Shown: positions 22,530-28,968 of the stretch, in pieces | Layout: each line of letters opens with the position of its first letter | Position numbering within the stretch: the stretch's first letter is position 1 | From: a virus | Length of the DNA: 64,000 bases | IMG/VR virus record: IMGVR_UViG_3300043570_002257 | Location: 1-64,000 of that record | Direction: 5' to 3' (one strand) | The notes under the pieces: generated by a model | What the model was told of the DNA's origin: nothing | The model's input: the letters and a program-made list of their open reading frames with translations, nothing else | The model's database searches: none | Made by a program: the position numbers and the translations under genes

Positions 22530-22592
22530 GTATGCTTTTTTTACACTTACATCAGTGCGGTACTGGCTAGTCCTGCATGGCATTCACCGTTG

Positions 22593-22667
22593 TTGCGGGG
22601 GTGGGATTTGAACCCACGTGGTTTGGCTTATGAGACCAAGCTGGAACCAACTCCAGTCTACCCCGCG
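22593..22667 (-). tRNA. tRNA-Met (CAT), initiator-like
   Basis: Cloverleaf on the minus strand: acceptor CGCGGGG with CCCCGCA leaving a C1 x A72 mismatch, D-arm CTGG-AGTTGGTT-CCAG, anticodon arm TTGGT-CTCATAA-GCCAA (anticodon CAT), T-arm GTGGG-TTCAAAT-CCCAC, discriminator A73. The 3' CCA is not encoded. The unpaired C1 x A72 is the hallmark of bacterial initiator tRNA; the three G-C pairs normally above the initiator anticodon are reduced to two here. It begins 5 nt after the GroES-like gene, so it is probably processed from the same transcript. Confidence 0.9.
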
Positions 22668-25740: not shown

Positions 25741-26232
25741 ATGAACAAAGTTCAAATTAAACCAACTGAAACTGGTGCTTTAGTAAACACCTACAAGAAC
25801 AATCCTGCTTATGGATACGTAACTCTTCAATCTGAAGAAATGAGCGTAGAAGGTGGCTGGGTTAGAAACTCAACACGCACTGCATTACTTAGAGCTGAGA
25901 CAAGCTTATTAGAAAAGTTTGTTAACACCTTTGGTAAATCTGGAAGTGTTACTGGACGTATTGTAGTAAGAGAATTTGCAGAGTCTCAACTACCTGAGAA
26001 CTTTCAATCACGCTTGAACAAGAACGTAGACTATGAAGATGCTATTGCACCTTACGTTAAACGTGCTGGTAAAGACGGTATTGAATTAACTATTGGTGGT
26101 GAGCGTATCTTGCGCTTTGCAGACTATGATGCATCTGGTGTAGACCAAGATGTACGCGTTGCACATGACAATGTTAGTGCTATTGCTGCATCACGCATTG
26201 TAAATGTAAATGCTGCTGCATTACCTGCTTAA
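25741..26232 (+). CDS. paralogue A of a tandem pair, unknown function
   Basis: 163 aa, starting MNKVQIKPTETGALVNTYKNN. It shares, along its whole length, about half of its residues with the gene at 26435-26926 (shared blocks YGYV, GGWVR, LLRA, YEDAIA, YVKRAG, GGERILRF). Codon use is less AT-rich with GCT/CGT/CGC codons, and a strong terminator follows, both signs of high expression. The content of basic and aromatic residues would allow nucleic-acid binding; unproven. Confidence 0.7.
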   Translation: MNKVQIKPTETGALVNTYKNNPAYGYVTLQSEEMSVEGGWVRNSTRTALLRAETSLLEKFVNTFGKSGSVTGRIVVREFAESQLPENFQSRLNKNVDYEDAIAPYVKRAGKDGIELTIGGERILRFADYDASGVDQDVRVAHDNVSAIAASRIVNVNAAALPA

Positions 26233-26434: not shown

Positions 26435-26926
26435 ATGTCTCAAGTACAAATCATCCCTAACTCAAAAACTGGCAGTGTAATCACAGCCTACAAAAACAAT
26501 GCTGACTATGGTTATGTTCAGCTTCAACAAACTGCTATCACCGTTGATGGTGGTTGGGTAAGAGAGAGCAACCGCTCTACTCTATTACGCGCAAAAATGG
26601 ACTTGTTAACCAAGTTTGTTAGCGCTTACAAAACTTTGCAATTGCCAGGTGCAATTGTAGTAAAAGAATATCTTGAGTCAGAAGTGCCTCAAGCTATTAG
26701 TGATAAATTCTTTAACAAAGAGTTAGCTTATGAAGATGCAATTGCACAGTATGTAAAACGTGCAGGTGCAGATGGTCAAGAGTTAACTGTTGGTGGAGAA
26801 CGCATTCTACGCTTCACAAGTTATGATGCTAACGGTTCTGATACAGACGTTAAAGTAGCACATGACAACGTAGTTGTAAAGGCAGAAGGTAAAATACAAC
26901 CTGCTCTTACAGCAAATTTAGGATAA
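26435..26926 (+). CDS. paralogue B of a tandem pair, unknown function
   Basis: 163 aa, the same length as paralogue A and alignable without large gaps. It starts MSQVQIIPNSKTGSVITAYKNN. The conserved part covers residues 20-150; the termini differ. It follows an AT-rich leader (ATTTAAAAAACAGATT) and ends 9 nt before a very long terminator. Each copy being a separate transcription unit suggests different timing or dosage. Confidence 0.7.
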   Translation: MSQVQIIPNSKTGSVITAYKNNADYGYVQLQQTAITVDGGWVRESNRSTLLRAKMDLLTKFVSAYKTLQLPGAIVVKEYLESEVPQAISDKFFNKELAYEDAIAQYVKRAGADGQELTVGGERILRFTSYDANGSDTDVKVAHDNVVVKAEGKIQPALTANLG

Positions 26927-26985: not shown

Positions 26986-27339
26986 CTTATCATTCTTTAA
27001 AACAATAGGTGTTGTGCGACAAACTCACAAAGATGTACAAAACTTCTTTGTAACTCATTGATTATAAAAGATTTATGTGCGTGAAAGGAGGTGGCTAATC
27101 TCCTCTCCCACATATATTAGTCAAAAAATATTCTCTCAAAAACATGTTGTAGTGTATAGTAAATAGCTATAACAGACAGATATGCTTACACAGTGAGCAA
27201 CAAAGTGATATGTTTCTTTCAAAGTTTCATATGTTCTTTCTTATGTTTCTTCTATAGTAAGTTTAAGATAATTAGTGTTATCTCTCTCTATAGCATAAGA
27301 GCATCCGCAATCTTTAAAAAACCCTCAAATCAAGTAATT
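26986..27339 (+). other. non-coding leader region before the 126-aa gene
   Basis: About 350 nt without a convincing gene; an in-frame extension of the 126-aa gene reaches back to 27193 but is hydrophobic, Cys/Phe-rich and has no leader. Visible elements are a hairpin built from ATGTG and CACAT around GGAG/CTCC (about 27074-27114) and imperfect repeats of ATGTTTCTTTC at about 27212-27255. Probably holds the promoter and leader of the next gene. Confidence 0.4.
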
Positions 27340-27720
27340 ATGGAATCAATGAAGAACTTTCTTATTCAAGTTACATTGCCTGATGGGCAAGTTTACAAAG
27401 AATCTGTTTATGCTCATACAAAATGGCATGCTATTGATAAAGCATATACAAAGATGTATAAGTATCAAAACAACCGCAAGATGTACAAATTATACAAACC
27501 CTCAAAATTAGGACATTTGTATGACAAGTACTTAGTTATTAACAATCTATGGAGCTTAGTAAACTTATTAAATGATGATAAGGTATTGTTTTACATAAGA
27601 GATGAGTCAGATAATTTTATTAATTATCCTCTTGACAACATCATAAATGCAGAACAACCTTACTTAGTCAAACTAATAAGACAGAAAAGGTTCTATTATT
27701 GCTATAAGACCATAGCATAA
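27340..27720 (+). CDS. unknown basic protein
   Basis: 126 aa from MESMKNFLIQVTLPDG. The ATG follows CAAATCAAGTAATT. A beta strand pair at the start (FLIQVTLPDGQVYKESVYAHT) is followed by a Lys/Tyr-rich helix (WHAIDKAYTKMYKYQNNRKMYK). The first 50 residues resemble small phage proteins with a beta-beta-helix layout. Function unknown. Confidence 0.5.
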   Translation: MESMKNFLIQVTLPDGQVYKESVYAHTKWHAIDKAYTKMYKYQNNRKMYKLYKPSKLGHLYDKYLVINNLWSLVNLLNDDKVLFYIRDESDNFINYPLDNIINAEQPYLVKLIRQKRFYYCYKTIA

Positions 27721-27792
27721 GTGGTGATGAAACAATGCAGTTTATATGTTAGCTAACAACATACGCATACACTGAAGAAGGTGTATAACAAT

Positions 27793-27845
27793 GGTCAAGT
27801 GGAGGGATATGTGCTCCCGCATAGGTTCAAGTCCTATCTTGACCA
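27793..27845 (+). ncRNA. tRNA-like minihelix without anticodon arm
   Basis: GGTCAAG (27793-27799) pairs fully with CTTGACC (27838-27844), directly beside a perfect T-arm ATAGG-TTCAAGT-CCTAT (27821-27837), with A at the discriminator position. Only 21 nt remain between acceptor and T-arm, enough for one hairpin (GGGA/TCCC or GGAG/CTCC), not for D- and anticodon arms. The top half of a tRNA is thus canonical and the lower half missing. Confidence 0.55.
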
Positions 27846-28062
27846 CGCGATTTGGCTCATTACCAAATAGTATGTCCAATATGATGAGAAGTGAGGTGAT
27901 TCCTCATGTGGAACTTCTGATAGGGAAAGGCTCTATTTAGATTGACTATCTGCGGAAAATATCAAAGAGAAGTAAAGAATAACGTACTCTCATAAGTCTA
28001 TTCCTAACCTAGCAATAGGGACAGCCATAACACTTGTAGTTGGATAAAATAGAGTGTTATAT

Positions 28063-28143
28063 AGTCAGGTATTGCGTAATGTGAAAGAGGTGATCACATC
28101 CTTAATGGTTGCAACGTCACAGGTTCGAATCCTGTCCTGACTA
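28063..28143 (+). ncRNA. tRNA-like fold with atypical central domain
   Basis: AGTCAGG (28063-28069) pairs fully with CCTGACT (28136-28142), next to a perfect T-arm ACAGG-TTCGAAT-CCTGT (28119-28135), discriminator A. The central 49 nt hold a strong hairpin ATGTGA-AAGAGGTGA-TCACAT and a possible TTGC/GCAA pairing, but no normal 5-bp anticodon stem with a 7-nt loop. It could be a divergent tRNA that I fail to fold, a decayed tRNA, or a tRNA mimic. Confidence 0.5.
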
Positions 28144-28416
28144 CATATTTTGTGCTGAAGGAGTAATCATGTTGGTAAGTCAAAGCAGTTTATTAGAGTG
28201 AACTGCTTGCTTTTAAATTCATACACACATACTCAAATAAGAAGTATGTTGTGAAGTGAAGCCAGTATGGTTACAAAAAGACTTTGTTTCAGGTAATAAA
28301 AAGCTCCCTTGGGAACAAAGCAAAAAACAATCAGGTTCTGACAAGATAGATAAAACGTTATCTTCAAGGTCCCTGTATTAATATTTAAATTATTGTTTCA
28401 CATAAATTCTCAGAAA

Positions 28417-28968
28417 ATGATTTACAAATTCAACAAAGATTCCCTCAAGTATGAAGGTGTGTTTCTTAAACTAAGTCTCTTCATTGTGCTTGCAATTGTG
28501 TTTGCATCATTAACATCTTATGTCGTTGGACATTATAGAGGTTATTATGATTATGAACATGCCGTTGTAACACCAGAAGAACGCATGATGGTTATTCAAG
28601 AGAATGACAAATTCTCAAAAGAAAAGTTTAAAGAGTATCTCTTACAACTGAACATTAAGTTTCCTCACATAGTATATGCTCAAGCAATACTTGAAACAGG
28701 TAACTTTAATTCAAAAATCTTTACTCTTAACCACAACCTATTTGGTATGAAGCAAGCACGTGTTCGTGCTACTACAAACCTTGGAAGTGAATTAGGTCAT
28801 GCTATGTATGGTCATTGGCGTGAAAGCGTTGTTGATTATGCTTTGTTTCAATGTGCCTTCCTAACAAGTATAAAAACTGAAGAAGGTTATTATCAATACT
28901 TAAAAGAAAATTATGCAGAAGCTCCAAATTATGTCACAAAAGTTAGAGAACTCTCTCAGAACTTTTAG
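28417..28968 (+). CDS. membrane-anchored glucosaminidase
   Basis: 183 aa from ATG at 28417 (a TTG eight codons upstream is an alternative). One transmembrane helix at about 19-40 after a basic start gives an N-in, C-out anchor. Residues 75-150 match the glucosaminidase (FlgJ/AtlA-type) domain: FPHIVYAQAILETGNFNSKIF with the catalytic-type Glu, then HNLFGMKQ, and HWRESVVDYALF. It would cut glycan strands of peptidoglycan from the periplasmic side. It lies in the early region, far from the lysis cassette, so it may act during infection or on the cell envelope and not only at lysis. Confidence 0.8.
   Translation: MIYKFNKDSLKYEGVFLKLSLFIVLAIVFASLTSYVVGHYRGYYDYEHAVVTPEERMMVIQENDKFSKEKFKEYLLQLNIKFPHIVYAQAILETGNFNSKIFTLNHNLFGMKQARVRATTNLGSELGHAMYGHWRESVVDYALFQCAFLTSIKTEEGYYQYLKENYAEAPNYVTKVRELSQNF

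Follow-up and report, generated by a model that had tools for sequence, protein, structure and literature searches.

The nearest precedent for the RNAs described here is rnaC (species 1 RNA) of phage T4, an RNA of yet unknown function that has been detected by Northern blot (PMC9697503). The present locus has tRNA-like elements (TLS) and a conserved structured RNA (S-RNA); T4 rnaC is a stable phage RNA at the end of a tRNA cluster, and its sequence ends in a T-arm and an acceptor-like tail (ACCGGGTTCGAATCCCGGCGTTTCGTA). However, the tRNA model does not match T4 rnaC (there is only a sub-threshold tRNA-Sec hit, at 17.5 bits), so its likeness to TLS is by eye; it also has a different sequence, a single copy and another host, and no further structured RNA is known beside it. 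GOLLD and ROOL are pseudoknotted structured phage RNAs found near tRNA islands, and tRNAs are sometimes linked to GOLLD (PMC12286853). GOLLD (RF02032) is, however, far larger than S-RNA, often exceeding 800 nt and having a 416-position model, and neither RNA gave a match in positions 27700-28450 (E up to 5) or in eight additional loci (E up to 1). In one tRNA array (L379), GOLLD (30-459, 278 bits) stands alongside an S-RNA and more than 20 tRNAs.

Outside this group, a tRNA frame can be engineered into a scaffold that stabilises an unrelated RNA. tmRNA resembles TLS plus S-RNA in that an acceptor/T-arm half is joined to a pseudoknotted RNA, but none is predicted in the window, and S-RNA carries no conserved tag frame, the lengths of its open frames varying widely. 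Two phages of 198 kb and 297 kb hold tmRNA-like sequences of the form GGGGGYGAATGGAATTGATTGGCAGGGTCAG...CCGCC (L090 250-635 and L093 264-650). Finally, mascRNA and menRNA are tRNA-like modules that serve as cutting points for RNase P and RNase Z, according to a passage in PMC11693755. These form the 3' ends of human lncRNAs and the scaffold is engineered, whereas TLS are phage-encoded, repeated, and carry different natural inserts.

The DNA studied here (the window) spans bases 1-64000 of a virus record 120,226 bases long. PHROG matches were obtained for its portal, terminase and head proteins, the portal family phrog_6547 being present in the window's genome and its nearest relatives, and on this ground we take the phage to be crAss-like. 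The sequences with which it was compared are metagenomic, except for the T4 control and other named records. Tandem paralogous 163-aa proteins without a PHROG match are encoded at 25741-26232 and 26435-26926, shortly upstream of the region considered below, and the sole called tRNA of the window (22592-22667, minus strand) has an irregular anticodon arm (ARAGORN: 'ct', tRNA-???).

A sequence-only reading of the window had drawn attention to positions 27721-28416 as a gene-free region between two genes on the same strand, holding at least seven perfect hairpins and two tRNA-like folds, and had suggested that it might give a processed multi-unit RNA, soak up RNases or binding proteins, or carry diverged tRNAs. 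Our ORF survey agrees: the region is without plausible genes, with only short overlapping ORFs between the ORF at 27193-27720 and the endolysin gene, and both neighbours are on the plus strand. The upstream stop codon at 27720 forms its left border, and some relatives keep the same upstream gene; when relatives were sought through that gene, the sole match was an identical contig (L002), and the exact cassette of the window is found only in this genome and that contig. Perfect hairpins (stem of at least 6 bp, loop up to 12) number seven, against 1.72 +/- 1.20 in dinucleotide-shuffled sequence, and an equal number in shuffled sequence, the outcome that would have spoken against the array, occurred in 0 of 200 shuffles. 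With loops up to 20 there are nine against 2.71 (again 0/200), a count above that of every other 696-nt tile in the window (maximum 8, 91 tiles). The plus-strand fold energy of the whole region (z = -3.8) is unevenly spread, being marked at TLS1 (z = -3.2) and in the stretch that follows TLS2 (z = -3.6). The S-RNA part in the middle has no outstanding fold energy, its meaning emerging only through comparison with other phages. The region is not a random hairpin array but a series of four adjacent RNAs, namely TLS1, S-RNA, TLS2 and an endolysin leader (Table 1). Two of the hairpins, at its left edge, have no conservation support and no similar sequence in other loci; they are perhaps the end of the upstream transcript.

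Table 1. Features of the RNA region and its flanking genes (window positions)
Feature	Position	Strand	Basis or detail
Upstream protein gene	27340..27720	+	likely ATG at ~27340; GTG ORF from 27193
Two short perfect hairpins	27745-27763, 27767-27786	+	hairpin count
TLS1, mini tRNA-like RNA, 53 nt	27793..27845	+	acceptor and T-arm search, tRNA model
TLS1 acceptor	27793-27799 / 27838-27844	+	GGTCAAG/CTTGACC
TLS1 T-arm	27821-27837	+	loop TTCAAGT
TLS1 A73	27845	+	
S-RNA, conserved structured RNA	27846..28061	+	comparison across loci, covariance model R3
S-RNA core	27846-27998	+	hairpins and pseudoknot
S-RNA pseudoknot	27944-27947 / 27995-27998	+	loop GACT with AGTC, four pairs
S-RNA 3' domain	27999-28061	+	closes with hairpin 28027-28060
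TLS2, tRNA-like RNA, 81 nt	28063..28143	+	acceptor and T-arm search, sub-family alignment
TLS2 acceptor	28063-28069 / 28136-28142	+	AGTCAGG/CCTGACT
TLS2 helix P2	28072-28075 / 28111-28114	+	TTGC/GCAA
TLS2 D-like arm	28079-28083 / 28095-28099	+	ATGTG/CACAT, GG in loop
TLS2 T-arm	28119-28135	+	
TLS2 A73	28143	+	
Endolysin leader RNA, conserved structured	28144..28416	+	relatives' alignment; covariance model R1 matches 28277-28384
Endolysin gene (membrane-anchored)	28420..28968	+	phrog_21890, E 4.5e-18; first gene past RNA region

The two tRNA-like folds proved exact at their ends: both have a 7-bp acceptor, a 5-bp T-arm with a TTCRA loop and the discriminator base A73. The anticodon arm of a tRNA (5 bp, 7-nt loop, U33) is absent from both. 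TLS1, in which D and anticodon arms are replaced by 21 nt, belongs to a size class also represented by L167 2090-2143. The Rfam tRNA model (RF00005) scores TLS1 and TLS2 at 27.3 and 28.4 bits, below its cut-off of 29, and aligns their ends only, skipping the D and anticodon domains; ARAGORN calls neither. A73 and the Leu-like D-arm found in many such elements at most suggest that they might be charged with leucine by LeuRS. In four relatives with 75-87% identical endolysin (L004, L005, L008 and L009), the TLS2 slot holds an ordinary tRNA-Leu(UAA), and in two others (L003 and L007) a protein gene.

Elements 117-145 nt long that share this acceptor and T-arm occur in more distant relatives (L010-L012), and when IMG/VR was scanned for their common 3' end, at least 120 stretches holding at least 170 elements were recovered. 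These have near-constant ends, AGTCAGG...CCTGACTA, often a Leu-like D-arm, and a hypervariable middle; TLS2 fits this definition exactly, and TLS1 with two compensated changes in the acceptor. As the scan selected for the CCTGACTA end, the dominance of AGTCAGG acceptors is partly by design; in loci fetched for other reasons (L083-L105) the noncanonical elements are likewise mostly AGTCAGG or a near variant. A contig may carry up to seven different copies, all on the same strand. Thirty aligned members that begin alike are identical over their first 20 bases and nearly so over the last 25, while the middle is near random (29 of 30 different), with entropy maximal or near-maximal over the whole interval between D-arm and T-arm. 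A73 is present in 172 of 183 members and GG in the D-loop region in 164, and an anticodon-type hairpin anywhere in the middle in 11. The family thus shares with tRNA-Leu (RF00005) the acceptor, T-arm, A73 and, in many members, a Leu-like D-arm, but differs in that 183 of 195 members are without an anticodon arm: a canonical one is found in 12 of 195 AGTCAGG-like elements, compared with 240 of the 335 remaining tRNA-like elements at those loci. To several of the elements without such an arm ARAGORN assigns a spurious anticodon or none. Middles are only weakly stabler than shuffled sequence (mean z -0.37, p = 0.0009), and strong folding may therefore be lacking in many. A few members (L088 547-639 and L120 2002-2095) are canonical tRNA-Leu(CAA), from which it follows that the family descends from tRNA-Leu. 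Three AGTCAGG or AGTTAGG elements of 169-202 nt (L012 3406-3607, L010 1346-1547 and, on the minus strand, L120 1774-1942) keep a CGCAAGG loop from the Leu CAA loop without U33, and in the first two an extra hairpin is inserted in the D-loop.

Carriers of the family include crAss-like phages as well as phages of up to 290 kb without a portal of the phrog_6547 family, and from our searches it appears to be nearly absent from bacterial genomes. Across 84,980 bacterial and archaeal genomes there were 33 exact matches, of which many are due to chance and lack a pairing 5' acceptor, and the AGTCAGG frame occurred in one of 396 Bacteroidota genomes, that one being the seed. The true matches lie mostly in Bacteroidota assemblies, pointing to Bacteroidota as hosts. 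Among cultured phages, similarity searches with TLS queries returned mainly T-arm matches to ordinary tRNAs, and no DNA match to the region was found; the 'tRNA-Undet' genes of Tenacibaculum phage pT24, considered as members, have a tRNA-Ile-like frame and fall outside the family. At least seven Companilactobacillus species (chromosomes L228, L230, L238, L243, L246, L248 and L254) repeat another anticodon-less tRNA-like element, TAGTCAG TGGCGCAACGGGTAACGC...ATGGTTCGACTCCATG CTGACTA (e.g. L228 ~30-111).

While middles vary across the family as a whole, they are conserved within sub-families. TLS2 shares with at least 15 elements in other phages (among them L107, L113, L122, L136, L137, L142, L182, L183, L203, L204, L217 and L247) an interior that is not that of a tRNA, comprising helix P2, a D-like arm with GG and a CC/GG ministem where the anticodon arm would stand. 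Of 52 cells, 51 are paired in helix P2, where shuffles average 41.7 (0/10000), and the whole structure was equalled in 0 of 500 shuffles. A covariance model (R2) gives the window copy, which is in its training set, 82.5 bits, and members outside the training set 75.0, 70.5, 67.3, 66.0, 63.9 and 51.4 bits; all 15 members score at least 63.9, and after a clear gap comes L121 at 51.4, which also shows the sub-family pattern. R2 also finds members whose acceptors differ yet still pair (AGTCGAG, GGCTAGG, AGCTAAG), which argues that the acceptor is kept as a helix and not as a DNA word. Middles change in compensatory fashion as well, as with TTGAA/TTCAA against AGCAA/TTGCT in L121, L169 and L173. 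A separate, tight anticodon-less sub-family (L097 1656, L113 4095 and L196 4325, all on the minus strand) has TGGCAAG or TGGAGAA as acceptor, and its compensatory changes run through CAC/GTG, CTC/GAG and CCC/GGG; as these acceptors differ from AGTCAGG, the phenomenon is not confined to AGTCAGG frames.

These data bear on whether the elements are simply decaying phage tRNA genes, adrift since the loss of the anticodon arm, with the remainder of the region being untranslated sequence. That close relatives hold a canonical tRNA-Leu(UAA) at the TLS2 position is in keeping with decay, as are the few tRNA-Leu(CAA) members with their implication of tRNA-Leu descent. Yet decay would not spare precisely both ends, and a perfect acceptor and T-arm around a lost interior are seen in at least 170 elements from many phages, up to seven per contig. 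Nor does decay account for sub-family interiors conserved with compensatory changes, or for the fact that the window's TLS2 resembles sub-family elements of other phages more closely than it does the tRNA-Leu carried by related genomes. We therefore regard it as improbable. The earlier suggestion of diverged tRNAs holds in that two units derive from tRNA, but fails as a description of mere decay, given the conserved non-tRNA interior of the TLS2 sub-family.

Alternatively, TLS could be functional tRNAs whose middle is an intron that is spliced out. Group I introns are known in bacterial tRNA-Leu, and L038 8818 has a candidate insert of ~45 nt in a plausible anticodon loop. Against this, the elements give no group I or II match, whether at Rfam cut-offs or with E relaxed to 5, the inserts (20-150 nt) are below the size of a group I intron, and the entropy profile leaves no constant anticodon-stem flank between D-arm and T-arm; TLS1, at 53 nt, has no room for any anticodon arm. 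An intron is accordingly very improbable.

Comparison of 27721-28062 with all loci reveals that the spacer of 217 nt between TLS1 and TLS2 recurs between or beside tRNA-like modules elsewhere (the modules of L136 are also 217 nt apart). Two pattern scans yielded 57 and 88 stretches in viral contigs, and S-RNA motifs are present in well over 100 such contigs. The RNA is characterised by an ACG start directly after a tRNA-like module, a near-invariant block TATGYCCAATAYGATGAGAA, several hairpins and a GACT/AGTC pseudoknot. In the window it begins immediately 3' of A73 of TLS1, with ACG, the block as GATGAGAA, the hairpins and the pseudoknot, and scores 167.9 bits with model R3, in whose training set it is included; the 3' domain, CCTAACC...GGGACAGCC.NAACACYTGTARGTTGGATA...GGTGTT, is likewise present in many copies, that of the window among them. 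Across 21 type-A S-RNAs, 37 pairs including the pseudoknot are paired in 95.7% of cells, 17 of them with two-sided changes (0/500 shuffles), and sliding the partner by 1-3 columns lowers pairing to 36-46%. The pseudoknot strands match in 19 of 21 cases over all types (shuffled mean 9.1, maximum 16, of 2000). Shuffle controls ignore the relatedness of the sequences, so the slid-partner controls and the two-sided changes carry more weight; model E-values are rough. The GACT/AGTC pairing was also considered as part of a group I intron and rejected: there is no RF00028 match, and the GACT strand lies inside a closed hairpin, a topology from which P7 of group I introns differs.

Nearly all S-RNAs (in the window from 27881) hold ATGAGAAR followed by an open frame of 4 to ~50 codons. 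A conserved small protein was rejected, the frame after ATGAGAA having no constant length, and the ATGAGAAR block is probably structural rather than a short translated frame. An antisense role of the middles or the spacer against the phage's own genome was likewise discarded, since the longest complementary stretches are no longer than in shuffled sequence. S-RNA matches no Rfam family and no INPHARED phage, and was found in 0 of 297 Bacteroidota genomes, which is weak evidence given strict filters and no positive control.

The association of S-RNA with tRNA-like modules is close. Of 64 distinct copies, 48 start right behind a T-arm and acceptor (37 of the AGTCAGG type and 11 others, including ordinary tRNAs), the other 16 having no recognisable intact module directly upstream, though several have degenerate ones. 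A T-loop motif follows 120-420 nt downstream in 41 of 60 cases, compared with 345 of 4000 random stretches, and S-RNA and TLS share a strand in all 76 loci (opposite, 0). The order TLS - S-RNA - TLS recurs in L086, L087, L136 and L299 as well as in the window, the two TLS positions being filled from different sub-families, which gives the impression of independent exchange of S-RNA and TLS cassettes.

At the level of DNA, the repeated AGTCAGG ends might instead be recombination sites that shuffle cassettes, RNA structure being incidental. Constant 25-nt ends around variable cassettes are what such sites would look like, and the slot before the leader does vary among close relatives (tRNA, TLS or ORF). 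Acceptor helices, however, change on both sides at once (GGTCAAG, besides the three acceptors recovered with R2), and this, with the strand shared by elements and S-RNA in 76/76 loci, is expected for an RNA and not for a recombination site. We give this explanation the least credence, although the ends could have a recombination role in addition to their role in RNA.

The fourth RNA, the leader, is conserved from the window to L012, whose endolysin is 54-56% identical. Of its 33 pairs, 20 show two-sided changes, with 95.2% of cells paired (0/500 shuffles). Model R1 finds 12 loci, each directly upstream of this endolysin, and none in relatives with endolysins of 49% identity, so that the leader is restricted to close relatives. 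It is probably a regulatory leader, or else an RNA processed from the endolysin message. The leader is kept in L003 and L007 despite the protein gene in their TLS2 slot and thus needs no tRNA-like module. Comparison across relatives, which the sequence-only reading had proposed as a check, therefore yields compensatory base changes in three RNAs of the chain (the TLS2 sub-family, S-RNA and the leader), and its multi-unit RNA is well supported at the level of sequence. That the units are processed is a prediction of the model that follows.

Maturation of a tRNA by RNase P, RNase Z and the CCA-adding enzyme depends on its acceptor stem/T-arm half, and the ribosome reads what the modules have lost. 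TLS modules keep the acceptor stem, T-arm and A73, and most family members also the D-loop GG. As they keep what tRNA-maturation enzymes read, RNase P and RNase Z would be expected to cut at their ends. The best explanation of the region, and in our judgement a probable one, is that a single plus-strand transcript is cut at its TLS modules by these enzymes, releasing S-RNA and the endolysin mRNA. One RNA would carry TLS1, S-RNA, TLS2 and the endolysin leader in that order, and host RNase P and RNase Z would cut at the TLS ends in the manner of mitochondrial 'tRNA punctuation'. The RNase Z cut at the 3' end of TLS1 would set the 5' end of S-RNA, and the RNase P cut at the 5' end of TLS2 its 3' end; the endolysin mRNA would then begin at its leader. 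The cuts would leave stable TLS RNAs with a foreign, variable middle, to which CCA might be added. The tRNA-Leu(UAA) in the pre-leader slot of L004, L005, L008 and L009 would suit a tRNA or tRNA-like module as cutting point. Counting against the model are the persistence of the leader in L003 and L007 with no module before it, the 16 of 64 S-RNAs that lack an intact one directly upstream, and the weak stability of the middles. Anatomy, conservation, compensatory changes, adjacency and strand agreement are observed; that the region is transcribed, cut, tailed with CCA and yields stable RNA is predicted from them.

The main rival is that TLS are decoys, chargeable or acceptor-only mimics of tRNA that tie up either tRNA-binding factors or host defence enzymes whose targets are tRNA ends, with the middle free to vary since only the acceptor/T-arm half would matter. 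Effectors of defence that target the tails or acceptor stems of tRNAs are described in PMC12851939 (Cas12a3) and PMC11559606 (toxSAS FaRel2). A constant acceptor/T-arm half with a free middle, in multiple copies per phage, is also what a decoy would have. It leaves unexplained, however, why a conserved S-RNA stands directly 3' of TLS and why sub-family interiors are conserved, and we judge it unlikely as a full account; a decoy role could nevertheless coexist with tRNA punctuation.

Extending the punctuation model, we put forward tentatively, but as a serious possibility, that these elements form a phage-specific modular class of RNA, in which frames derived from tRNA-Leu have had the anticodon domain swapped for varied structured inserts and excise S-RNA in series. 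This would amount to a natural tRNA scaffold that delivers stable non-coding RNAs during infection of Bacteroidota by phages.

Against known RNA families (Rfam), TLS elements and S-RNA give only tRNA matches, on the tRNA-like elements. No paper describing either was found in the open literature; as subscription papers were outside this search, novelty is likely rather than certain. Both look like variants among the tRNA-like and structured RNAs of phages, S-RNA itself looking like a new RNA class, a conserved pseudoknotted addition to the few phage RNAs (GOLLD, ROOL, T4 RNA C and D) that have no known function. TLS1, S-RNA and TLS2 have relatives across many unrelated phages, and these look, as far as comparison of genomes can tell, like a large family of non-coding RNA in phages that has been overlooked. 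The fixed junction between TLS and S-RNA directly predicts RNA ends. Programs for tRNA annotation drop or mislabel elements without an anticodon arm in phage arrays, and, if these are real RNAs, many large phages hold several stable non-coding RNAs that have gone uncounted.
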